From positions 1 to 20,190 of IMG/VR virus record IMGVR_UViG_3300045996_000150: a stretch of 20,190 nt of DNA. The stretch is one strand, 5' to 3'. The number at the start of each line of letters is the position of its first letter. Position 1 is the stretch's first letter. Source of the stretch: a virus. The notes below the pieces were generated by a model, which worked only from the letters and a program-made list of their open reading frames with translations, did not search any database and was not told where the DNA came from. Positions 1-17,687 of the stretch are shown one piece after another. The translations under genes were made by a program, and so were the position numbers.

Positions 1-261
1 ATAACCGTTGCTTGGGTGACCTATGCGGAGCCGTGGGCTGAAGTTGTGCCCGTGTCTGCCCGCGAGTTCATCCAGTCCGATGCCAAGCAGTCAGAGATCA
101 AGGGCCGCATCGTCATTCGCTATCGCAGTGACGTTGACGCCACACACCGCGCCATCCATCGCGGGAAGTATTTCAACTTGCTTGGCGTGATACCGGACGA
201 TGAGTCGGGGAAAGAGCACCTGACCCTGATGACCGCAGAAGGCGTGAATCTGGGCGAATGA
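1..261 (+). CDS. Head closure protein (SPP1 gp16/Phage_H_T_join type), 5' truncated
   Basis: The reading frame is open from base 1, so the gene begins before the window; the GTG at 16 need not be its start. The visible 86 residues carry the usual pattern of phage head closure (stopper) proteins: W-AEVVPVSAREF, then RIVIRYRSDVDATHRAI, then YFNLLGVIPDDESGKEHLTL. By family knowledge such proteins form a ring under the portal/adaptor that seals the filled head and receives the tail. It ends in an ATGA overlap with the next gene. In related phages the next gene is an HK97 gp10-like neck protein; here that gene lies 3.9 kb further on, beyond an inserted block. The family assignment rests on the motif pattern and context. 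Confidence 0.75.
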   Translation: MTVAWVTYAEPWAEVVPVSAREFIQSDAKQSEIKGRIVIRYRSDVDATHRAIHRGKYFNLLGVIPDDESGKEHLTLMTAEGVNLGE

Positions 262-776
262 TCTGGGCGATTCTTGCCACCGGCCCGAGCATGTCTCAGG
301 CCGTGGCCGATTCAGTGCGCGGACGGTGCGACGTTGTTGCGGTGTCCGATGCCTACAAGCTGGCTCCGTGGGCCGATGTTCTGGTTTCGTCGGATCTGAA
401 GTGGTGGCGGCACCACCAGCCAGACTTTCCTGGCGCGAAATACGCAGCAGTGGAAGTCGCCGGGGTTAAGCGATTCGACTGGACGAGCACCGACACCAAT
501 TCTGGCCTACTTGGGATCAAGGTGGCTGCGAGCCTTGGGGCAACGAAAGTCCTTTTGCTCGGGTTCGATATGGGCGGTACGCACTTCTTCGGCAAGCACC
601 CAAGCCCGCTGCGGAACACGACAGACGAAAGGTTTGAGGTTTTCAAGAAACAGTTCGCGGATTACCGGCCGCGAGGCGTCGAGATTATCAACTGCACTCC
701 AGGCAGCGCCCTGAAGTGCTATCCAATGGCGAGATTGGATGAAGTGCTGGCTGAATCTTCGCTACACGCTGCCTGA
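258..776 (+). CDS. GPS-motif protein, DUF115/sialyltransferase-like (putative glycosyltransferase)
   Basis: 172 residues. The N-terminus shows a short strand followed by ATGPSM (residues 7-12), and the middle has NSGLLGIKVAASLGATKVLL (81-100) followed by GFDM (102-105). This layout, with GPS near the N-terminus and an N/T-S-G helix plus a hydrophobic strand ending G-x-D, is shared by DUF115/MptE-like proteins, by flagellin-modifying Maf proteins and by GT42 sialyltransferases such as CstII, where GPS and the later Asp line the nucleotide-sugar site. An enzymatic role in sugar transfer is therefore inferred, not shown. Substrate cannot be read from sequence. It starts at an ATGA overlap and its 3' end overlaps the next gene by 38 bases. 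Phage proteins of this kind are often annotated only as hypothetical. Confidence 0.6.
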   Translation: MIWAILATGPSMSQAVADSVRGRCDVVAVSDAYKLAPWADVLVSSDLKWWRHHQPDFPGAKYAAVEVAGVKRFDWTSTDTNSGLLGIKVAASLGATKVLLLGFDMGGTHFFGKHPSPLRNTTDERFEVFKKQFADYRPRGVEIINCTPGSALKCYPMARLDEVLAESSLHAA

Positions 777-1458
777 GCGCAGGACGCTGTTTGAGGCGGG
801 GTTGTCCCGCCTGGGGTATGAGGTATGCCACGGGCTTCCGAGCGCCACAGAGGGCGTTCTGGTGACGTGGAACCGCATTGGCGCGGCGAATGCCCTAGCG
901 GAAAAGTTTGAGCAGGCTGGATTACCCGTGATCGTCGCAGAGAATGCGGCGTGGGGTAACGAGTTCGCTGGCAGCAAGTGGTATTCCCTGGCGCTTCGCA
1001 GACACAACACGGCTGGCACGTTCCCAGTTGGCGGCTCCGCTAGGTGGGATCGCCTTGATGTCACCCTTGAGCCTTGGCGGCAATCAGGCGAGACCGTAAT
1101 CCTTCCGCAGAGGGGGATCGGTTCCAAGCCTACGGCCATGCCGCATGGCTGGCCGCAGGATGCTTACCGCAGGCACGGCGGACGTATTAGGCCGCACCCC
1201 GGCAGGCAGCCCTGCAAGCCTCTCTGCGACGATCTGGCGAAAGCCGGTCGCGCGGTCACTTGGGGTAGCGGGGCGGCCATACAGGCGCTCCTGTTGGGCA
1301 TTCCGGTCACTTCGGAAATGCCGGAATGGATCGGCGAGCAGGACAACACTGACGAAGGCCGACTGGCGATGTTCAGGCGGCTGGCATGGGCGCAGTGGCG
1401 GCATGAAGAGATCGGATCAGGAGAGGCGTTCGCGTGGCTCTTAGCGTCGTCTGCCTGA
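739..1458 (+). CDS. GT-B-like glycosyltransferase, first of two tandem paralogues
   Basis: 239 residues. The C-terminal half carries a polysaccharide-type GT-B signature: RPHPGRQP (151-158), then VTWGSGAAIQALLLGIPV (173-190), resembling the R-HP and S-x3-AL-x2-G-P-V elements of capsule and CDP-glycerol transferases. N-terminal landmarks are LVTWNRIG (41-48), a highly specific RRHNTAGTFPVGG (87-99) and EPWRQSGETVILPQRG (111-126). It resembles the following gene in order and content of motifs. It starts inside the preceding gene with only a weak GAGA ribosome site, so translation is probably coupled. Acceptor and sugar are unknown. That it is a real gene is nearly certain; the glycosyltransferase role is inferred from motifs. 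Confidence 0.6.
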   Translation: MKCWLNLRYTLPERRTLFEAGLSRLGYEVCHGLPSATEGVLVTWNRIGAANALAEKFEQAGLPVIVAENAAWGNEFAGSKWYSLALRRHNTAGTFPVGGSARWDRLDVTLEPWRQSGETVILPQRGIGSKPTAMPHGWPQDAYRRHGGRIRPHPGRQPCKPLCDDLAKAGRAVTWGSGAAIQALLLGIPVTSEMPEWIGEQDNTDEGRLAMFRRLAWAQWRHEEIGSGEAFAWLLASSA

Positions 1459-2213
1459 CCTCTTCGCTCACGCGGTATCTCGTGGTGGCCGAGGCCATGT
1501 CTCAAGGCATCCGAGCCTATGGCGATCAGGTAACGGTGCGAGGGTTGGGCGAGGGAAAGATTGGCGCTGACGTGGCGGTCTGCTACGGCTGGAAGCATCA
1601 CGACATATTCGAGCGGTATCCCAATTTCGTTTATGCGGACTTGGGGTATTGGCAGCGCGACAACTACTACCGGTTTTCGGTGAACGGTTGGTCGCCAAAG
1701 GTACGGACTGATCTGTCCGCGAGTCGGCTTGACCGGCTCGGCCTGTCCGTTCAGCCGTGGCGGCAGGATGGCCGTCAGATCATCGTGGCGGGCAGTACCG
1801 CTAAGGCGTGCCGAGACCACGGACTTGCGTACATGGACTGGGAAACCCGCGCCTGCAATGCGCTAAAGGATTGCGGAATCCCGGTGGTCTACAGGCCCAA
1901 GCCTAACGACCGGAACGCGCGACCCATTCCAGGCTTCGGTTACGACCAGCGCCCCATTGGCGACGCGCTTGCAGCGGCCAACTTATGGGTTACGCATCAC
2001 AGCAATTCGGCGCTAGACGCTTTGCTGGCTGGAGTGCCAGTCCATTGCGAAACAGGAGCTGGATCACTCTTGAGTGTTCCTATCGAGTCGGCTGCCGCCC
2101 CGCCACTTCTGGATGGACGAGAGCAGTTGCTTGCTGGCGTGTCATGGCTTCAATGGACGGTGGAAGAGATGCGGAGCGGCGAGTGCTGGGCGCATCTGAG
2201 GACTTACATTTGA
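1434..2213 (+). CDS. GT-B-like glycosyltransferase, second tandem paralogue
   Basis: 259 residues, GTG start preceded by GGAGAGG. Motifs line up with the upstream gene: QPWRQDGRQIIVAG (107-120), YRPKPNDR (153-160), VTHHSNSALDALLAGVPV (186-203) and SWLQWTVEEMRSGECWAHL (237-255). The first half has diverged much more; it includes VCYGWKHHDIF (49-59) and YADLGYWQRDNYYRFS (67-82). The HP of the first paralogue is KP here, so the two may differ in donor or acceptor, or one may be less active. The S-x3-AL-LAG-P-V element is a nucleotide-sugar-binding feature of GT-B enzymes in general. It ends in a TTGA overlap with the next gene. Function is inferred. Confidence 0.6.
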   Translation: MALSVVCLTSSLTRYLVVAEAMSQGIRAYGDQVTVRGLGEGKIGADVAVCYGWKHHDIFERYPNFVYADLGYWQRDNYYRFSVNGWSPKVRTDLSASRLDRLGLSVQPWRQDGRQIIVAGSTAKACRDHGLAYMDWETRACNALKDCGIPVVYRPKPNDRNARPIPGFGYDQRPIGDALAAANLWVTHHSNSALDALLAGVPVHCETGAGSLLSVPIESAAAPPLLDGREQLLAGVSWLQWTVEEMRSGECWAHLRTYI

Positions 2214-2917
2214 CAACGTTTGATGCGGTCACGACCTACGCAGATCGCCACTGGGACGAGTACGCAAGCAGGTTTGTCGAGACGTTCCACGCGCACTGGA
2301 AAGACGTAAAACTTCGCACGTACACGGATGACAAGCTGGAGGAATTGTCCGACTGGCTGCCTGAGTTCAAGCAGCGGCACAGACACCGGTCTACTGATAA
2401 CTACCGGTTTGATGCGGTGCGGTTCGCGCACAAGGTCGCAGCCCTAGAGCTTGCCTACCGAGTTGGAAGCGCGGACGTGATGATCTGGATCGACGCAGAT
2501 TGCGTCACGCACGCGGACGTGGATGCCGAGTGGCTTTCCGGACTGATCGGCTACGGCGACTTCGCGTACCTGCGGCGAGAGAAGAAGTACCCGGAATGCG
2601 GCTTCATGATGTTCCGTAGGAATGCGGCTGCGTCGGAACTGCTCCGGCGGATCGTGTCCCTGTATCGGACCGACGACCTGTTCGACCTTCAGGAATGGCA
2701 CGACAGCTGGGCCATAGAGCAGATCCGGAAAAGCATGGGTGATTTGCTCAAGTGCGTATCCCTGTCGGGTGAATTTGAGAGCAGCGGCCACCCGTTTATC
2801 AACGGTCCGCTAGGGGCGCGGCTTGACCACTGTAAGGGCAAGCGCAAGGCGTCCGGAAAGTCCAAGCAGTCAGATTTGAAAACGGCGAGAAAAGAGGATT
2901 ACTGGCGACATGGCTAA
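2210..2917 (+). CDS. GT-A-like glycosyltransferase with DAD motif
   Basis: I choose the TTG at 2210 because it overlaps the preceding stop (TTGA) and has GAGGA about 9 bases upstream; a longer frame would overlap the previous gene by over 200 bases. This gives 235 residues. A hydrophobic strand ends in MIWIDADCVTHADVD (91-105), a DxD metal and nucleotide-sugar site. It is followed by CGFMMFRRN (130-138), EWHDSWAIEQIRK (162-174) and the tail motif HPFINGPLGARLDHCKGKRK (194-213), which is typical of glycosyltransferases carried by tailed phages. The C-terminus is strongly basic (GKRKASGKSKQSDLKTARK). It probably transfers a sugar to a protein or glycan; the acceptor is unknown. It overlaps the next gene by 8 bases. 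Confidence 0.7.
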   Translation: MTTFDAVTTYADRHWDEYASRFVETFHAHWKDVKLRTYTDDKLEELSDWLPEFKQRHRHRSTDNYRFDAVRFAHKVAALELAYRVGSADVMIWIDADCVTHADVDAEWLSGLIGYGDFAYLRREKKYPECGFMMFRRNAAASELLRRIVSLYRTDDLFDLQEWHDSWAIEQIRKSMGDLLKCVSLSGEFESSGHPFINGPLGARLDHCKGKRKASGKSKQSDLKTARKEDYWRHG

Positions 2918-3500
2918 ACGCTACGACCAGATTTTGAAGATTGTTGAAAAGATTCGCCCAAAGTCCGTTGTGGAGGTTGGCGTTCACCGCGCCGTCCGTG
3001 CGGTTTCGATTTGTGCCGAGGCGTTGGTCCACTCGCCGGAAGTCGAGTACGTCGGCTATGATGTGTTTGAGACTTTGGGCGAGGCGTTCCAAGAGGAAGC
3101 ACTGAACGGTAAGGGCATGGCAACGGAAGCTGCCGCACGGGATCGGCTTAACAGCCTGGCGAGGAAGTCGCGTAGACGCTTTAGCTATTCCATTGTGATC
3201 GGCGACACGCGGGACACACTGCACGGAACCCGCGTCAAGGCCGATCTTGCCTTCATCGACGGTGACCACCGAGTGGACGCCATCGTCGGTGATTACGCTG
3301 CGCTAGATGGCTGCCGCGTCGTCATCTTCGATGACTACTACCGCGTTGACGGGGAAGGAAACATTCCTGACCTGAGTCTCTATGGGGCCAATGCAGTAGT
3401 AGATGAACTGGCCGCGCAGGGTCGAAAGGTGGAAATTCTGCCGGTTGGTGACAAGTGCAAGCATGGCGGGCTTTCCCACCTTGCGGTGGTCTACCGGTGA
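2910..3500 (+). CDS. Class I SAM-dependent methyltransferase-like protein
   Basis: 196 residues with a Rossmann methyltransferase layout: motif I SVVEVGVHRAV (19-29), an acidic second strand EYVGYDVFET (46-55), VIGDTRDTL (96-104), then ADLAFIDGDHRVDAIVGDY (111-129) and VVIFDDYY (137-144). The FIDGDH plus VIFDDY pair is characteristic of the Methyltransf_24-type family, which includes sugar- and small-molecule O-methyltransferases. Motif I lacks the usual second glycine, so activity should not be taken for granted. Being embedded among glycosyltransferases suggests methylation of a transferred sugar rather than of DNA; no target-recognition domain or NPPY/PC motif is present. GAGGA lies 11 bases before the ATG. 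It ends in a GTGA overlap. Confidence 0.65.
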   Translation: MAKRYDQILKIVEKIRPKSVVEVGVHRAVRAVSICAEALVHSPEVEYVGYDVFETLGEAFQEEALNGKGMATEAAARDRLNSLARKSRRRFSYSIVIGDTRDTLHGTRVKADLAFIDGDHRVDAIVGDYAALDGCRVVIFDDYYRVDGEGNIPDLSLYGANAVVDELAAQGRKVEILPVGDKCKHGGLSHLAVVYR

Positions 3501-4177
3501 AGATTTACATAGGCCATGACAGCCGCGAGCAGGCGGCCTATGACGTGGCCACGAGCACCCTGGCGAAGCATTGCAGCATCGTGCCCGAGCCGTTGCGATC
3601 AGACCGGCTTGCAGAACGGGGCCTTCTTCGCCGCACGGTGGACCGTCGCGGACAGATGTACGACTTGCCAAGCAACGCCCCATGCGCCACTGACTTTGCC
3701 ATCAGTCGGTTCCTGACGCCGATCCTGGCGCAGACCGGATGGGCGCTGTTCGTGGATTGCGATGTTGTGTTCATGGCGAACCCGGCCGAATTGCTAGAGA
3801 TCGCCGACCCCTCCAAGGCCGTCATGGTGGTCAAGCACGCCCAACAGGGCGGCGGCTACAAGATGGACGGTCAGGTTCAGACGGTCTACTCACGCAAGAA
3901 CTGGTCGAGCGTGATGCTGTTCAACTGTGACCACCCCGCAAACCGCAGGCTATCCCTGTCTGACGTGAACGATCGTCCGGGCCGCGACTTGCACGGCTTC
4001 TACTGGCTACACGACGACGAGATCGGCGAACTGCCACCGGAATGGAACTGGCTGGTTAACGTTGAGGCAAAGCCGGATAACCCGAAGATCGCCCACTTCA
4101 CCAACGGCGGACCTTGGTTCCCGACATGGGCCGGGGCCGAGCATGACGAAATCTGGCTGGAGGCAAGCCGTGGCTGA
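3497..4177 (+). CDS. GT8-like glycosyltransferase with DCD motif
   Basis: GTG at 3497 is chosen because it overlaps the previous stop and starts the protein directly at the first strand, VKIYIGHDSREQAAYDV (1-17), the usual N-terminus of this phage-borne GT-A family. Of 226 residues, GWALFVDCDVVFM (81-93) supplies the DxD metal site, NWSSVMLFNCDHP (135-147) an acceptor/fold motif, and IAHFTNGGPWF (198-208) resembles the C-terminal H-x-x-G-x-x-K-P-W metal-coordinating motif of GT8 enzymes. DEIGELPPEWNWLV (174-187) is also typical. A retaining sugar transfer is therefore plausible. It is the last gene of the inserted block and overlaps the HK97 gp10-like gene by 8 bases. Donor and acceptor cannot be told from sequence. 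Confidence 0.72.
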   Translation: MKIYIGHDSREQAAYDVATSTLAKHCSIVPEPLRSDRLAERGLLRRTVDRRGQMYDLPSNAPCATDFAISRFLTPILAQTGWALFVDCDVVFMANPAELLEIADPSKAVMVVKHAQQGGGYKMDGQVQTVYSRKNWSSVMLFNCDHPANRRLSLSDVNDRPGRDLHGFYWLHDDEIGELPPEWNWLVNVEAKPDNPKIAHFTNGGPWFPTWAGAEHDEIWLEASRG

Positions 4178-4607
4178 TTTCCAGATCCAAGGACTTGAAG
4201 CTTTCCTTCGCAAGATGCAAGGCGTCAAGAAAGAGATCGTCGGCAAGGCGGTCAGGGCGGCTGCTAACAAGGCCATGCGTTCAGTACGGGACGCGGCGCG
4301 CAACAAGGCCCGTGGATTTGATGATCCCGAAACGCCTTCGGACATCGCCAAGAACATAGCGATCAGCACGCGCAACCAGACGAAGCTAGGGCAAGTGATT
4401 GCAAAGGTCGGCGTTCGCGGCGGCGCGAAGCCACAGCCCGGCAATGAGGACACAGGCCACTGGCGGTTCAAAGAGTTTGGCACTGAAAAGATGCCAGCCG
4501 AGCCCTTCATGCGTCCGGCACTGGAAGAGAACATCCAGACCGTAGTGCAGTCCGTCGTGTCAGAACTTGAACCTGCCTTGGATAAGGCCGTAGCCAAGGC
4601 GGTGTGA
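4170..4607 (+). CDS. HK97 gp10-like neck/tail-completion protein
   Basis: GTG at 4170 is chosen because GGAGG lies 6 bases upstream and the product then begins VADFQIQGLEAFLRKM, the usual opening of this family. 145 residues. The hallmark is HWRFKEFGTEKMPAEPFM (97-114) followed by RPALEE, matching the conserved EFGT-x3-PA-x-PF-x-RPA of HK97 gp10 family proteins, which act at the head-tail interface. The early part (residues 11-48) is a basic amphipathic helix rich in Lys, Arg and Ala. It is followed by the tail terminator gene, which is the usual neighbour. The usual upstream neighbour, the head closure gene, is displaced by the glycosyltransferase block. Confidence 0.85.
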   Translation: MADFQIQGLEAFLRKMQGVKKEIVGKAVRAAANKAMRSVRDAARNKARGFDDPETPSDIAKNIAISTRNQTKLGQVIAKVGVRGGAKPQPGNEDTGHWRFKEFGTEKMPAEPFMRPALEENIQTVVQSVVSELEPALDKAVAKAV

Positions 4608-4984
4608 TGTATCCGACTTTCTTCCCAACGCTGATGGCAGATGCCTCGGTGACGGCGGTGCTTGGGTCAAACCCGACAAGGGTTTGGCCCCATAGAGAGG
4701 CGCCTCAAACGGGAACCCAGTTTTATCAGCTTCCCTACGCCACGCATCAACTAATCATCGGGTCGCCGGAAAATTACCTGTCAGGCGCGCCAGACATTGA
4801 TGGGTTTCGGATTCAGTTCAACTTCTATGGTGAAACCTCGGCTCAGGTTATCGAAGCTGCGGCTGCGGTCCGCAGCGCTTTAGAAGACATCGCCTATGTC
4901 GTGAGCCTCAATGGCACGGGGAGAGACCCCGACACTGACAACTACACATACAGCTTCGACGTGGAGTTCATGTCGTCGCGTTGA
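4607..4984 (+). CDS. Tail terminator protein (DUF3168-like)
   Basis: About 125 residues. Either the GTG at 4604 or the ATG at 4607 can start it; AAGG at 4596-4599 is better spaced for the ATG, which forms a TGATG overlap with the preceding gene. The family layout is visible: MADASVTAVLGSNPTRVWP at the start, IDGFRIQFNFYGETSAQVIE in the middle (the strand that reads RIQ-x2-F), a helix AAAAVRSALED, and the closing YTYSFDVEFM. DUF3168-like proteins form the ring that ends tail-tube growth and docks to the head. It is followed by a 206-base non-coding stretch. Assignment rests on pattern and gene order. Confidence 0.8.
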   Translation: MYPTFFPTLMADASVTAVLGSNPTRVWPHREAPQTGTQFYQLPYATHQLIIGSPENYLSGAPDIDGFRIQFNFYGETSAQVIEAAAAVRSALEDIAYVVSLNGTGRDPDTDNYTYSFDVEFMSSR

Positions 4985-5190
4985 TTTAGCCGCGCATAGC
5001 CCCGTCGTGAGACGCCGCGACCGCGCGCACAAATTCGCGGTACAGCGCCCAGAGGTTCAGCGCAGGCGGTCGGCTTTGTTATCCGCTGGCGGTCCCTGTG
5101 GTGAGCCGAGGCCGCGAGCCTAAATCGCAGTACGCGTCTGCGACCAGACCGCCGTGAGGCGGCCTTTCCCATCTAGATGGAGTAACCACC
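4985..5190 (+). promoter_or_regulatory. Structured non-coding leader before the tail tube gene
   Basis: No plausible gene is seen in these 206 bases, which is striking in an operon where genes otherwise overlap. Three perfect hairpins are visible: ACCGCG/CGCGGT (5020-5025 with 5036-5041, 10-base loop), TCGCAG/CTGCGA (5125-5130 with 5138-5143, 7-base loop) and CCGCC/GGCGG with a GTGA (GNRA-type) loop (5149-5162), the last followed by CCTTTCCC. GGCGGTC also occurs twice between about 5063 and 5095. The last hairpin may act as a weak terminator, RNA-stability element or processing site. I see no convincing -35/-10 pair. The role is inferred. Confidence 0.5.
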
Positions 5191-5655
5191 TTGGCTAAGA
5201 AGACCCAGGGAACGCAACTTTATGTTGTGGACCCGGCGGACCTGTCCGTTCTCACCGTTGGCTGCGTGACTGCGATCACCGGTATTTCCGCATCGCGCGA
5301 CCAGATCGAAACTACCTGCCTTGACTCGGCGGCCCGCACGTATGAAGCGGGTCTGGCGACTCCCGGCGCGGCTCAGTTCACGATCAATTTCGATCCTTCC
5401 GACGAATCGCACATGCGCCTGCATGAGCTGTACGTGGCTGGCACCACCCTCAACTGGGGGCTGGGCTGGTCCGACGGCACGGCTGCGCCGACGGCTAACA
5501 GCGCGGGCGAGCTTGTGCTTCCCACCAGCCGCAGCTGGATTTCGTTTGACGGCTTCATCTCTGACCTTCCTTTCGACTTCTCGCTCAACTCGGTGGTTAC
5601 GTCGAACGTGTCGGTACAGGTGTCTGGCTTCCCGGTCCTGACCGAGAAGGTTTAA
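5191..5655 (+). CDS. Major tail tube protein
   Basis: 154 residues from a TTG start with GGAG 8 bases upstream. The protein is beta-rich with low charge and reads like lambda gpV-type tube proteins: AKKTQGTQLYVVDP at the start, then a Thr/Ala/Ser-rich body with IETTCLDSAARTYEAG (about 44-59), a conserved early feature of these proteins, AQFTINFDPSDESH, and a closing VTSNVSVQVSGFPVL. It lies between the tail terminator and the tail chaperones, exactly where the tube gene is expected. Many copies would stack to form the tail. It is flanked on both sides by non-coding hairpins, which suggests that its mRNA is regulated or stabilised separately. TTG as the start of such an abundant product is unusual. 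Confidence 0.85.
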   Translation: MAKKTQGTQLYVVDPADLSVLTVGCVTAITGISASRDQIETTCLDSAARTYEAGLATPGAAQFTINFDPSDESHMRLHELYVAGTTLNWGLGWSDGTAAPTANSAGELVLPTSRSWISFDGFISDLPFDFSLNSVVTSNVSVQVSGFPVLTEKV

Positions 5656-5738
5656 CGGCGAGTAGCAAGTCTTCGGAGCGGTCTGTGGGCGTGTCTCGCC
5701 GCACGTTCCCGCGCTCCACCTATCTAGGCGAGTAGAGA
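5656..5738 (+). promoter_or_regulatory. Intergenic hairpin and GGCGAGTAG direct repeat
   Basis: These 83 non-coding bases follow the tail tube stop. CGGCGAG (5656-5662) can pair with CTCGCCG (5695-5701), a perfect 7-base stem that closes a 32-base internal region. The nonamer GGCGAGTAG occurs at 5657-5665 and again at 5727-5735, just before the next ATG, so the second copy could compete for the same pairing partner. The AGTAGAGA before ATG 5739 offers only a weak ribosome site. A role as transcript attenuator or differential-expression element between tube and chaperone is inferred. Confidence 0.4.
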
Positions 5739-13400: not shown

Positions 13401-13778
13401 GATACCACGCTAACGGTTCGTGCCACGACGTTGGGCACCAGCTCCGACTCTGCCGTGCCGGTCGAGTACGACTTCAGCGAAGGCGCGTCTCAGACCGAAT
13501 GGCCTGTCCACAACGTGGAAGCAGAGCGCGACGGCTCAGACAACGTGACCGTGACGTGGGTCGGCCGCGCGCGACTCGGCACGGAAACCAGCCCGTACCA
13601 ATCGACGCACTTCACCGGCTACCGCGTGACGTTTGACGACGGCGTGACCGAAGAGAGCTTCGACACGACGGACACGACTTACACCCTCGCCAGTGCGGCC
13701 GACCCAATCACCGTCACCGTCGCGCCCCTTAACGACATCACGGGCGCAGGCCCGGCCAGTGCAGGAATCACCGTCTAA
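10416..13778 (+). CDS. Central tail tip/host-specificity protein with inserted beta-propeller-like domain
   Basis: 1120 residues. Residues 1-45 are a Gly/Ala-rich hydrophobic segment; SDARTQTSRDGVAIPFGWGT and TYTRSYAVGLCEGPITGI are the classic opening of GTA gp15/lambda J-like proteins. The conserved core resumes at PCEGVALSTIVGEICEMEGL (583 onward), then WDGKVRFILRGG, the long ERMQEAELLRRVTVGYIDP region and LLRGRYST. Residues 1030-1119 look like a fibronectin type III domain (VTVTW, then YRVTFDDG). Between about 235 and 580 lies a domain absent from minimal relatives. It has five Asp-box-like turns (SIDNMQTW 306-313, TSTDLVEW 389-396, SDDGGYTF 440-447, TSADNF 480-485, ASDDMQSW 526-533) spaced 42-84 residues apart, suggesting a 6-7-bladed propeller. 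Likely role: central spike and receptor contact. Confidence 0.85.
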   Translation: MSGSTIGGAIGFVVGSFFGMGQVGWMVGSAIGGYIDPEKIEGPRLSDARTQTSRDGVAIPFGWGTFPLAGNIIWQQPTVTEHKNTETQGKGGPEVTTFTYTRSYAVGLCEGPITGILQIKRNGKLVYDARDDATLEAEYQESLGPLSTVGDWFDRIRLQRAMNTRFMNNCEVYLGDETQTPDPTIESYEGVGNVPAYRGLAYIVVTDDDVTDLQGAIPQLEFVIAACGTTSTSTSGDGAVSMLAVGQSRDVPEADPCWATLDSLNPPSFVGIPRSTGANLDTNPSPACWNGVYSIIQLNDGVGRYSIDNMQTWVTSSSPAGFNTHTAGPAGFVGHAGGSTNKLYKAPVGVPAEYTEIPGAPEATANIRYTGSMYTLYGYLGDGIIRTWTSTDLVEWTNRYVSTVGAGYYEIHDIIEFGGSIYVAGRWFDGSISRYQFRRSDDGGYTFPTLLLEDNIHIPYHLESGNGILGCMTKDGYAYTSADNFATPVDTGLDDTYSSRNRALEYVGGYFYVLGALAGNLYYATASDDMQSWSSIVDTGLASVEALVGPEGGFVGEPLPDAPGWYVDQQGIVTGPGGTVVTPCEGVALSTIVGEICEMEGLTSDEYDVSQLEDIFVPGFRVANEGDAASAIAALMPAYFFDVGEWDGKVRFILRGGDSSFAINGDDLVERDGDAFERERMQEAELLRRVTVGYIDPAAAYGPTTQKWERRAGTVQAKGEASMELPLTLDADSAATIAKKRGLTAWGEPEKQKFSLPYRLAALTPTDVGTYTDDDGEIHTLRLMQAEDDSGIRYMEAATNSAEAYGATATGVSPKPPALSGVNLLGPTKLAVMDLPIWRSTDADDLGLYVAASGYFGAWQGTQIDVSTDEGVSYVSAATITAAATIGYTTTALTAWESSETPEEQEVTVYLPDAPASVDYATLLRYNNRAAVQLDSGAWEILQYQTVTALGDDLYTLSGLLRGRYSTTPGVVSANSTFVLLNAAVQFVRTERDYLDTTLTVRATTLGTSSDSAVPVEYDFSEGASQTEWPVHNVEAERDGSDNVTVTWVGRARLGTETSPYQSTHFTGYRVTFDDGVTEESFDTTDTTYTLASAADPITVTVAPLNDITGAGPASAGITV

Positions 13779-15226
13779 TGGCAACTACGAACCTCGCTCT
13801 GACCGAGATGCCAAGCAATAGCTTGCAACCCTCGGTTCCGTTCAATGCAGATATTCTGAAGATCGATGCTGCGATAGCCGGGACGCTCACGATTGAGTTT
13901 TCTAGCGACGCCAACCTGACGCTGACCGAAGCGCAATACCAGCAGAGCGCGCTGGTCTTTACCGACTCGCCCTCCACGCTGACGGCGGGGCGGGATGTGG
14001 TATTCCCCGACCACTTCCCTCTGATGTACGTAAAGAACAGCACGGCTCAAACGCTTACGCTGAAGAAGTCAGGGCAGTCAGGCGTCACTGTGCTTGCGGG
14101 CGCGGAGGCCATCGTCGGCTCCGGCGCATCCGATGTGGTTAAGGTGTCGGGCGGCGGCACCGCATCACAAATTTCTATCGTTGATGCCGGAGCGTACTTC
14201 ACCGGAACAGACGTGGAAGCCGCTTTGCAGGAACTGGGGGCGGGCGGTGGTGGCGGCGGCGGACTGACACATTTCACAGAGGCCGCCAACAGTTCAGCGC
14301 CCAACGGAACTGTTCCTGTTGTCTCCCTAGCCGCGACCAACGCAGCAACCAACGTGGACGTGGCACTTGCCCCCAAAGGAACGGGGGGGCTGGCCGCGCA
14401 TATCGCGGACAGCGCCAGTACGGGGGGCAACAAGCGAGGCGCTAGTGCGGTGGACTGGCAAACGGTTCGCTCCGTAGCGTCACAGGCAGCTACCGGTTCG
14501 CAGTCGGTCATCGGTGGAGGCTCTGCCAATACGGCATCCTTCGCCAACTCTACTGTTGCTGGCGGGATCAGCAACACCGCATCGGCTGCATACGCCACCG
14601 TTACCGGCGGAAACAGCAACACCGCATCCGGTCAGTACTCAACCGCAGGCGGGCGTAGCAATGTGGCGTCTGGAGCGCAGTCAACCGCGTTCGGCCACAC
14701 CAATACGGCATCTGTAGCCTCAGCTACAGCTTTTGGACAGAACGGTACGGCTAACGGAATAACATCCTTTGTGATGGGCACGGCGGGGAATGCCCGGAGC
14801 ATTGCCAATTCCCGAGTTCTCGGCTCCGGCACGGGGCGGCAGGAAACGTGCGTTGTTCTCTACAAGAACACCACGGATGCCACGCCCACTGTCTTAATTT
14901 CTGACGGAGGCGCTGCATCAGCAACAAACCAATACGCGCTTTCGTCCGGCATGGCGTCCTGCCTGAACATCATGATCGTCGCGAGGCAGACCGCAGGCAC
15001 CGGAACTGGCGCGGTTCACGCTTGGCAAGCGTTTGCGCTCATAAAGAACATCAGCGGCACGACTTCGCTAGAGGCGGCGGTAACGCCGACCACTGTGGCG
15101 GGGTCCACTTCATGGACGGTCGCGGTCACGGCCGACAGCACCAACGACACGCTGGTCATCACGGTTACCGGAGAGGCGAGCAAGACGATACAGTGGACCG
15201 CCCGAATCGTCGGGGTAGACGCCTAA
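13778..15226 (+). CDS. Tail fibre/receptor-binding protein with YadA-like head repeats
   Basis: 482 residues, TAATG overlap with the tip gene. Residues 1-125 are a beta-rich attachment domain. DAGAYFTGTDVEAALQELGA (136-155) is a common fibre trimerisation motif and runs into a nine-residue Gly-rich linker (154-162). WQTVRSVASQAATGSQSVIG leads into five to six repeats of 14-15 residues, each with an N-T-A-S core (251-254, 266-269, 281-284, NVAS 295-298, 309-312). This is the left-handed beta-roll style of YadA and Hia heads, which is trimeric. The C-terminal 150 residues (CVVLYKNTTDATPTVLISDG to TIQWTARIVGVDA) form a beta domain of the sort seen at phage fibre tips. Receptor unknown. Confidence 0.8.
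   Translation: MATTNLALTEMPSNSLQPSVPFNADILKIDAAIAGTLTIEFSSDANLTLTEAQYQQSALVFTDSPSTLTAGRDVVFPDHFPLMYVKNSTAQTLTLKKSGQSGVTVLAGAEAIVGSGASDVVKVSGGGTASQISIVDAGAYFTGTDVEAALQELGAGGGGGGGLTHFTEAANSSAPNGTVPVVSLAATNAATNVDVALAPKGTGGLAAHIADSASTGGNKRGASAVDWQTVRSVASQAATGSQSVIGGGSANTASFANSTVAGGISNTASAAYATVTGGNSNTASGQYSTAGGRSNVASGAQSTAFGHTNTASVASATAFGQNGTANGITSFVMGTAGNARSIANSRVLGSGTGRQETCVVLYKNTTDATPTVLISDGGAASATNQYALSSGMASCLNIMIVARQTAGTGTGAVHAWQAFALIKNISGTTSLEAAVTPTTVAGSTSWTVAVTADSTNDTLVITVTGEASKTIQWTARIVGVDA
14500..14758 (+). repeat. In-gene tandem repeat, period 42-45 bases (YadA-like units)
   Basis: Degenerate direct repeats encode the N-T-A-S units of the fibre. Core words such as AACACCGCATC and AATACGGCATC recur every 42-45 bases, always in frame. 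Units have already diverged, so copy number changes by slippage are possible but not evident. Confidence 0.75.
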
Positions 15227-16117: not shown

Positions 16118-17155
16118 TCACCTCGTTGGTGTGACCTTATCGCCGCGCCGGTTCCTGACGTACTGCTCTGTCATCGTCACCGACGCGTGCCCCAGTTGCT
16201 TCTGTGCCTGACGAATGTCGCCAGACGATTCTGCCTTGTCCGTTCCCGCCTTCGCCCGCAGATCGCGGAACTGAAAGGCGTCTTTCGCAATCCCTGCCAG
16301 CCTGCGTGCCTTGTCGAAACGGTAGCGCAACGCGTCCCGCCTAAGCGGCATTCCATCCTCTCCCACAATCAGCCGAGTGCTGTAGACCTCGCACCCGCGC
16401 TTCCTCGCCTTGATCCGGTCAATGACGGCCTTCAGCTCGCCCTGCACCTCGATCCGGCGCTTCGTGTTCGTCTTCCCCTGCTTGATGTGTAACGCCCCGT
16501 CCCTGATGTCCGTGTCGTCGTAGGAGCGCGTGTCTGCGGGCCTCTGTCCGGTCAGGTAGGCTAGGTCCAGCGCGTCCCTGAGCGGCTGGTCTGCGTGCTT
16601 GTAGACGGCCTCCAGCACACTGTCCTCCACGTACACGTCCCGGCCAGTTTCCGTGTTGCCTTCAATGCCCTTGCATGGGTTCGGCGCGTCGGTGTAACCC
16701 CACTTCCTCGCCTTGTTCCACATGTGGGAGAGCAGCGCTTTCTCACGGTTGGCACGCACCAAGGCAACGGTTCCGTGCTTCGTCCGCCAATCCATGTACT
16801 GCGCGACGTGCATCGGTTTGATGCTTGCCAGTGGTGCGGGAGGCTCGCCAAAAAATACCTGCAACTTCTTCCACTCGTTCAGGTTGTCTACCTGAGTACG
16901 CGGACCCTTATTGGGTACAACCTCGCGCACGTATCGCTCCCATACGTGGGGGAGCGTCACTATCTCTGGCGTGGCGTGGTCGTCCGCCTCTAGTTCGGCC
17001 CACTTGCGCACGGCGTCGGCGTAGACGCGGCCCAGAGGAACCTCGGCGGGCTTCTTGGGCCGCTGGTCGTAGTAGTAGTACGTCACCCGCCCACGCACGC
17101 GGGCACGCATACGCGGCGGCAGATGGCGGAACTTGCTGGTGCGGTTTCGGCCCAT
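16118..17155 (-). CDS. int: Tyrosine-recombinase integrase
   Basis: ATG 17155 is chosen because it overlaps the stop of the DUF4224 gene (TAATG) and gives MGRNRTSKFRHLPPRM, the normal start; a longer frame would run through that gene. 345 residues. The N-terminal DNA-binding region includes RVTYYYYDQRPKKPAEVPLG; a SAM-like core-binding domain spans about 65-165. The catalytic set is R205 (LTGQRPAD), K228 (QGKTNTK), R300 in FRDLRAKAGTD, H323 (LGHASVTMTEQYV) and nucleophile Y332. The first residue of the H-x-x-R box is Arg (R297) rather than His, as in related phage integrases. It ends in VTPTR and catalyses insertion at the tRNA-Lys gene whose 3' end lies nearby. Confidence 0.93.
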   Translation of the reverse strand: MGRNRTSKFRHLPPRMRARVRGRVTYYYYDQRPKKPAEVPLGRVYADAVRKWAELEADDHATPEIVTLPHVWERYVREVVPNKGPRTQVDNLNEWKKLQVFFGEPPAPLASIKPMHVAQYMDWRTKHGTVALVRANREKALLSHMWNKARKWGYTDAPNPCKGIEGNTETGRDVYVEDSVLEAVYKHADQPLRDALDLAYLTGQRPADTRSYDDTDIRDGALHIKQGKTNTKRRIEVQGELKAVIDRIKARKRGCEVYSTRLIVGEDGMPLRRDALRYRFDKARRLAGIAKDAFQFRDLRAKAGTDKAESSGDIRQAQKQLGHASVTMTEQYVRNRRGDKVTPTR

Positions 17156-17376
17156 TAGGCGGCGTCGAGTGCTTTGGAGCGCCAGGTGGATTCTTCCGGC
17201 TTCGCTCGCTCTCCGTTGACGGCCGATAGTGGCACGACCGGCCAGCCTGCGGCGTTGATCGTATGCCGCACTCCGTTCTGGCGCAGCGTGCGTAGCTGCG
17301 TGTCGCGGGTATGCGCGCCCGTCATCTCGGCAACCTGCCCGTGAGATCCCGGTGTCAGAAACAGTCGCTCGCTCAC
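17155..17376 (-). CDS. DUF4224-like protein, putative integrase partner/excisionase-like
   Basis: 73 residues, GTG start with a strong GGAGGTGG just upstream and a GTGA overlap with the preceding gene. FLTPGSHGQVAEMTGAHTRD, then LRTLRQNGVRHTINAAGWPV and a final AVNGE stretch match the DUF4224 pattern (F-L-T, helix ELTG, then L-x3-G-I-x5-A-x-G-x-P-V). DUF4224 genes are regularly found directly before phage tyrosine integrases; the fold suggests a small winged-helix-like DNA-binding protein, so a directionality role is possible but unproven. The TAATG junction links it translationally to the integrase. Confidence 0.8.
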   Translation of the reverse strand: MSERLFLTPGSHGQVAEMTGAHTRDTQLRTLRQNGVRHTINAAGWPVVPLSAVNGERAKPEESTWRSKALDAA

Positions 17377-17687
17377 GCTCCACCTCCCTCGCCGTCACCC
17401 GCTGGTAGTAGGCGGACGCGCTTGCCCTTCACGGACTCCGGGTTGTCCATCTGCACCACGGCGCCAGTGCATGCACTCACGAAGTCTGGACCGCTTTGCC
17501 CAACAACGAATCCAACCGGAGCCGCCAACACCCGCGCCTCCAGCGCCCGCAGCCGGTCCAGTTCGTCCAGCAGAGCTTGGCCGTGTCGGCGAATGAAGAT
17601 GCCCGCCTTGTGGCCCACTGGCCCGTGGACTTTGTAGTGCTCGATTTGCTCCGCAAGCTTGCCGCGCAGCTCATTGGTATCAACCAT
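17373..17687 (-). CDS. Hypothetical helical protein
   Basis: 104 residues from ATG 17687, chosen because CTGGAGGA lies 6 bases upstream. NELRGKLAEQIEHYKVHGPV leads to a basic patch GIFIRRHGQ and a coiled-coil-like LLDELDRLRALEARVLA. The second half looks small and beta-rich (PVGFVVGQSGPDFVSACTG, VVQMDNPESVKGKRVRLLP). No family recognised. Its beginning lies inside the 3' end of the preceding small membrane gene and its end overlaps the DUF4224 gene by 4 bases, so it belongs to the leftward integrase operon. Confidence 0.7.
   Translation of the reverse strand: MVDTNELRGKLAEQIEHYKVHGPVGHKAGIFIRRHGQALLDELDRLRALEARVLAAPVGFVVGQSGPDFVSACTGAVVQMDNPESVKGKRVRLLPAGDGEGGGA

Follow-up and report, generated by a model that had tools for sequence, protein, structure and literature searches.

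A recurrent glycosyltransferase and methyltransferase cassette in the neck-gene region of a temperate siphophage, with a probable role in virion glycosylation

In a 20,190-base IMG/VR record from a temperate siphophage (IMGVR_UViG_3300045996_000150; its whole length is called the window below) we found a cassette of six genes, designated A to F, between the gene for the head closure protein Hc1 and that for an HK97 gp10-like neck protein. The six genes are intact and overlapping, their products have glycosyltransferase (GT) or methyltransferase family and fold assignments, and they are under purifying selection and recur as a unit in other phages. The cassette is real, conserved and mobile. 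It probably encodes a portable pathway by which the virus particle is coated with a methyl-capped sugar chain. We give a probability of about 60% to the reading that its soluble products, expressed late, use host sugar nucleotides to build an O-methylated oligosaccharide on a virion protein.

Conservation and recurrence of the cassette

Neighboring genes within A-F overlap by 4-38 nucleotides (nt), and the ends of the block overlap Hc1 (stop at 261) and gp10 (GTG at 4170), so that an earlier reading of this DNA, made from the sequence only, was right in placing six co-directional, overlapping open reading frames (ORFs) there. The ratio of nonsynonymous to synonymous differences (pN/pS) was 0.12-0.25 for C-F against one relative (L014) and 0.27-0.47 for A-F against another (L015), values within the range of the flanking structural genes; since A-F resemble their flanks in this respect, the six ORFs are not chance reading frames. 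We considered a recent foreign insertion of A-F and rejected it because the base composition of the block (GC content 0.57-0.63) matches that of the flanks (0.55-0.60).

Scans of IMG/VR identified 121 relatives of B (80 of them kept), 45 of F, 34 of E (about half of them weak) and 15 of D, and 172 loci were annotated by profiles for gene order. The order A-B-C-D-E-F occupied the slot between Hc1 and gp10 in nine loci, one of them the window itself and two probably from the same virus; the set A-B-GT-C-methyltransferase-F occupied it in many more, and permuted or substituted sets were seen in dozens. In some loci the whole set lay immediately upstream of Hc1, or A was shifted to the end, and other cassettes lay between the capsid gene and Hc1, after the tape measure gene or, in Caulobacter jumbo phages, after the tail genes. 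The earlier question of whether the block moves as a unit can be answered positively, as ordered sets recur in other phages at several structural-gene sites. Since these sites include positions before Hc1, after the tape measure and after the tail genes, the neck site appears to be a tolerant position rather than a sign of the acceptor, and nothing supports taking the location as pointing to neck proteins as the acceptor.

The sequence-only reading had also held that Hc1 and gp10 are normally adjacent, which proved half true. In a survey anchored on the tail tube protein, and independent of the cassette, 47 loci (not deduplicated) had both genes; these abutted in 16 (gap -121 to 63 nt) and were separated by more than 500 nt in 31, which means that the slot is often occupied. 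At least five gene sets were found among the inserts of this survey, i.e., the window set, A-B-GT-C-methyltransferase-F, GT9 with a methyltransferase, GT-D/GT2/FkbM sets, and sets in which A is accompanied by other genes, among them a GDPD-like gene. Across all loci there were 57 distinct occupied slots, with at least two putative GT genes in 48 and a methyltransferase in 42, fractions that are biased upward because the loci were partly picked by B, F and E and several slot family assignments were weak or made by eye.

Some slots held further enzymes. A 2-oxoglutarate (2OG)-Fe(II) oxygenase (PF13640, E-value 6.5e-15; L030:6767-7516 and relatives, slot family u4), present in five of the 57 distinct slots, could hydroxylate an acceptor residue or sugar. 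Five loci (L206, L207, L212, L214 and L218) carried A with a 297-residue protein (no Pfam match, ATP-grasp-like by eye) and a GDPD-type phosphodiesterase (PF03009, 8.9e-20 in L206), with a putative GT as well in four of the five, and this set might attach a phosphodiester-linked group. Three more (L172, L175 and L177) carried an enzyme of GT-D fold (PF08759, 2.1e-19 in L177) with methyltransferase-like genes, whose FkbM type was assigned by eye or from the profile match of a relative. In L074 (12534 bases) the order was B-C-C-C-methyltransferase-D-F; this contig was binned to Candidatus Methanoperedens, an archaeon, and is either an archaeal virus or a mis-binned phage.

Predicted functions of the six products

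Gene A matched PHROG 4603, which carries the name alpha-2,3-sialyltransferase, and a profile of the A family matched the GT42 sialyltransferase CstII (E-value 4.5e-4) with the GPS and SG..LG...L.G.D blocks aligned, showing sequence similarity to GT42 enzymes across the catalytic domain. The alignment stops short of CstII His188, and the invariant H109 of A falls near Tyr162; we take both CstII residues to have catalytic roles. Homologs of A occur in phages P1 (PmgO), P7 (HdmB), D3 (orf7) and PAJU2 (ORF010). The first three are in well-studied phages, where their sole annotation is a morphogenetic role or a homology-based sialyltransferase name.

For the paralogs B and C, the window members matched no Pfam, NCBIfam or PHROG family, and a profile of B alone gave only a chance match against the PDB; the joint B and C profile gave weak matches to KpsC, C itself matched KpsC weakly (E-value 0.087), and giant-virus "capsule polysaccharide" proteins also matched B. 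An AlphaFold2 (AF2) model of B (predicted local distance difference test, pLDDT, 93.5) matched WbbB (Z 12.2, 224 residues), KpsC (Z 11.8) and KrkA (Z 9.7), the next unrelated match scoring 7.1, and B is accordingly predicted to have the GT-B fold of the KpsC/WbbB type (GT107/GT99), a type of 3-deoxy-D-manno-oct-2-ulosonic acid (Kdo) transferase. While B shares this fold over nearly its whole length, it is shorter than those enzymes, and the KpsC nucleophile D160 aligns (in a weak alignment of sequences only, E-value 0.11) with B Gly128, within an invariant R-G-I-G. An Asp nucleophile that would form a Kdo adduct thus appears to be lacking in B, and since the position is an invariant Gly we do not call B a Kdo transferase.

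Gene D is predicted to have a GT-A fold with a DXD motif. Its AF2 model (pLDDT 90.9) had domain 1 of A064R from chlorovirus PBCV-1 as the top PDB fold (Z 15.5, root-mean-square deviation 3.0 over 180; next family 12.8), pointing to the A064R-D1 type, and D95-A-D97 is invariant in 13 relatives. Six of the 13 matched Glycos_transf_2 (best E-value 6e-4), and the D profile had no matches in the PDB. A match to MLTR_LBD (E-value 8e-4, below the cut-off, three of 13 members) was rejected, as the GT-A model and DXD motif account for the protein.

Gene E is predicted to be a class I S-adenosylmethionine (SAM) methyltransferase of the Methyltransf_24 type: all nine relatives matched PF13578 (best E-value 2e-9), while the window member itself scored 24.6 bits, under the cut-off of 26.3. 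D117-G-D-H and D141-D142 are invariant in the alignment of relatives, and D117 and D141-D142 are reminiscent of the metal-binding Asp and Asp-Asp of the metal-dependent TylF/MycF-like sugar O-methyltransferases. Its profile found no matches in the PDB, and a PHROG match to "DNA methyltransferase" (3.7e-5) was rejected as reflecting the common class I fold.

Gene F fell below the curated cut-off for GT8 membership (PF01501, E-value 7e-4, 19.7 bits against 24.3; WbbM, E-value 0.006) and may be described as weakly GT8-like. D87 and D89 of its DCD motif are conserved, the motif being DXD in most relatives and D-A-S-D in a subset; these two divergent forms share one cassette position, as if exchanged for specificity.

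These results agree with the sequence-only reading, which had described A as a GPS-motif protein of a sugar-building set, B and C as GT-B-like paralogs, D and F as GT-A-like and E as SAM-methyltransferase-like, and had proposed structure prediction as a check; the models, run on B and D, gave glycosyltransferase folds. No clear membrane segment was found in A-F (best 19-residue hydropathy 1.72), and none of the six genes matched a PADLOC defense model.

Genomic context and host

The features of the window are listed in Table 1. No promoter-like sites were found in 1-5700, including inside A-F, and terminator-like sites in this region were no more frequent than expected by chance; A-F are presumably co-transcribed with the structural genes and expressed late. 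The 5' part of Hc1 is lost at the window start, and the plus strand carries the tail tube, tape measure and tail tip genes.

Table 1. Cassette genes, neighboring genes and integrase of the window
Feature	Position	Strand	Predicted product	Evidence
Hc1, left flank	16..261	+	head closure (Phage_HCP)	PF05521 E 8.9e-16, profile positions 32-103; phrog_25 E 7.3e-21
A	258..776	+	172 aa, GT42 (CstII sialyltransferase)-like putative glycosyltransferase	phrog_4603 E 3.5e-34
B	739..1458	+	239 aa, predicted GT-B fold, KpsC/WbbB type	AF2 model
C	1434..2213	+	259 aa, putative GT-B, B paralog	BLASTP to B E 4e-10
D	2210..2917	+	235 aa, predicted GT-A glycosyltransferase, TTG start	AF2 model, DAD motif
E	2910..3500	+	196 aa, predicted class I SAM methyltransferase (Methyltransf_24)	PF13578 in relatives
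F	3497..4177	+	226 aa, GT-A/GT8-like, GTG start	phrog_28018 E 1.4e-49
gp10-like, right flank	4170..4607	+	HK97 gp10-like tail completion/neck protein, GTG start 4170	PF04883 E 1.8e-6; phrog_5 E 6e-19
Tail terminator	4604..4984	+	tail terminator	PF11367 E 4.8e-10; phrog_78
Tail tube	5191..5655	+	major tail tube protein	PF16460 E 6.6e-61
Integrase	16118-17398	-	integrase	

A megablast search of the whole window against phages gave no match, cultured phages all being distant at the DNA level, and there were only three matches among metagenome-assembled genomes. The tail tip protein was closest to those of Xanthomonas phages XAJ2 and Langgrundblatt (~37-39% identity across two thirds), and the host is therefore probably a proteobacterium. 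At the tail-fiber position, a 482-residue ORF (13778-15226) without a PHROG match contains short imperfect N/T/A/S-G repeats and is a possible glycan acceptor.

Comparison with known systems

A tblastn search of cultured phages found collinear A-B-C-F homologs in the Caulobacter jumbo phages CcrSC and CcrColossus (Bertelyvirus, Colossusvirus), followed by a methyltransferase and GT9 of their own. Unlike the window cassette, this set sits after the tail genes and before the endolysin, has an unrelated methyltransferase and is without D; the 2012 Caulobacter paper describing CcrColossus does not mention the glycosyl genes. In PAJU2 (ORF010-012) an A homolog, a GT9-like gene and a methyltransferase lie between Hc1 and the gene preceding the tail terminator, and in D3 (orf7, orf12 and orf13) the same three kinds of gene are split within the head-neck region, with A before Ad1. 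Both sets are smaller than that of the window, and A alone is homologous (~30% identity), the other enzymes being unrelated. Upstream of Hc1, Tetraselmis viridis virus S20 carries a pair of A-like genes together with a methyltransferase and genes annotated as glycosyltransferases. The window cassette does not fit the Gtr-type seroconversion cassette, in which a GtrA flippase and GtrB/GtrC lie near the integrase. In the open-licence literature searched, we found neither this cassette described nor any neck operon with a GT42-like gene.

Mycobacteriophage virion glycosylation, reportedly the subject of work by Freeman et al. in 2023, likewise involves phage-encoded glycosyltransferases. It is known from few GTs, and is not known to involve a set of six genes like that of the window, which includes GT42-like and KpsC-like enzymes as well as a methyltransferase. 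Work cited in PMC12619734 and PMC10955285 is reported to have located mycobacteriophage glycans on the subunits of capsid and tail tube. In PBCV-1, A064R joins two rhamnosyltransferases and a methyltransferase that build the capsid glycan, and together with A061L it provides the nearest worked precedent for virus-encoded GTs and O-methyltransferases making a methyl-capped capsid glycan (PMC9614988). By its model, window D shares the fold of A064R-D1 at ~10% sequence identity; PBCV-1 is, however, a eukaryotic giant virus with an N-linked glycan and fused domains.

Proposed function and alternatives

In the scheme that we infer for the order of sugar addition, the sugars, the acceptor and the product on the virion, the self-contained, soluble cassette would be read through within the late structural operon, with host nucleotide sugars as donors. 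One GT would start a chain on a virion protein made concurrently, a step for which A, as one of the most constant members, is a candidate; B, C, D and F would lengthen the chain, and O-methylation by E would then cap it. The product would be a short methylated oligosaccharide attached to subunits of the capsid, tail tube or fiber. Supporting this, the cassettes remain with structural genes at most of the sites to which they move. The late sugar-building set proposed in the sequence-only reading is thus still the best reading, given the GT and methyltransferase identities by profile and fold. We also looked for several families in 15 cassette-bearing records, whose completeness was not confirmed, and found no thymidylate synthase-type, CMP-sugar synthetase, GtrA (PF04138) or NDP-sugar epimerase family in any of them, which disfavors DNA-base glycosylation and Gtr-type seroconversion and suggests that the donors are presumably host nucleotide sugars.

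Some points weigh against virion glycosylation. A and B/C are similar to enzymes whose substrates are lipid-linked glycans (lipooligosaccharide sialylation, Kdo linkers); B, with an invariant Gly at the KpsC nucleophile position, may differ in donor and mechanism; the methyl acceptor of E could be a protein or small molecule; and in Pelagibacter phage Mosig the relatives of D and F are adjacent amid nucleotide-metabolism genes, outside the structural genes.

The most serious alternative, which we consider improbable overall, is that the cassette modifies the host envelope (lipopolysaccharide core or capsule), acting either from the prophage or at a late stage of infection, and so keeps progeny off debris or excludes competing phages. 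Seroconverting phages are well known, this phage is temperate (it has an integrase), and the alternative stays serious because of the similarity of A to GT42 sialyltransferases and of B/C to the Kdo transferases that take part in capsule and lipopolysaccharide assembly. Against this, the genes lie within the late structural cluster and ~12 kb away from the integrase gene, the 15 relatives yielded no GtrA-type flippase, the large genomes of Caulobacter and Pelagibacter phages also contain related sets, and a cassette of five GTs and one methyltransferase is larger than the two or three genes usual for conversion.

We regard it as unlikely that the target of the enzymes is not the virion but a small molecule or secreted glycan that they produce or alter (e.g., an anti-defense metabolite or cell-wall sugar): the PADLOC result is neutral here, but the location with virion genes is constant in unrelated phages, and GTs are exchanged in modular fashion, as in glycan antigen loci. 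If the slot were a permissive insertion site and its contents passenger genes that share no pathway, this would fit the variety of sets in the slot and its being empty in a third of tail-tube relatives; such a reading is very unlikely given that most occupants are glycan or methyl-transfer enzymes, that identical gene order is kept in distant phages and that the genes are under purifying selection. Least probable is glycosylation of phage DNA (hypermodified bases), since, common as phage GTs acting on DNA are according to work cited in PMC12619734, the thymidylate synthase-type hydroxymethylase family was not found in the 15 records of unconfirmed completeness, the cassette sits amid structural genes, and the fold matches are to protein or polysaccharide GTs.

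Significance

Beyond virion glycosylation by this one phage, we hold a wider proposal tentatively, at a little under even odds: that a widespread portable locus, as yet without a name, lies among the structural genes of phages of Gram-negative bacteria and encodes a lipid-independent cytoplasmic pathway. This pathway would place a glycan that is variable and O-methyl-capped directly on the subunits of the virion, using interchangeable GT42-like, KpsC-like, A064R-like and GT8/GT9/GT-D enzymes, FkbM and other methyltransferases, and sometimes a 2OG-Fe(II) oxygenase. If true, this would be a phage "antigen locus" paralleling the chlorovirus capsid glycan system.

Few systems of phage virion glycosylation are known. 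The kind of function proposed is ordinary, as phage glycosyltransferases and virion glycosylation have precedent; its scale, organization and recurrence are unusual. As the recurring multi-enzyme cassette has counterparts in the cultured phages D3 and PAJU2 and the Caulobacter jumbo phages, the proposal would be directly testable. It would explain genes labeled "alpha-2,3-sialyltransferase" or "morphogenetic", such as P1 PmgO and D3 orf7, and would offer soluble enzymes that might place multi-sugar glycans on protein in bacteria. A virion coat of this kind would plausibly change the adsorption, stability or recognition of the particle.

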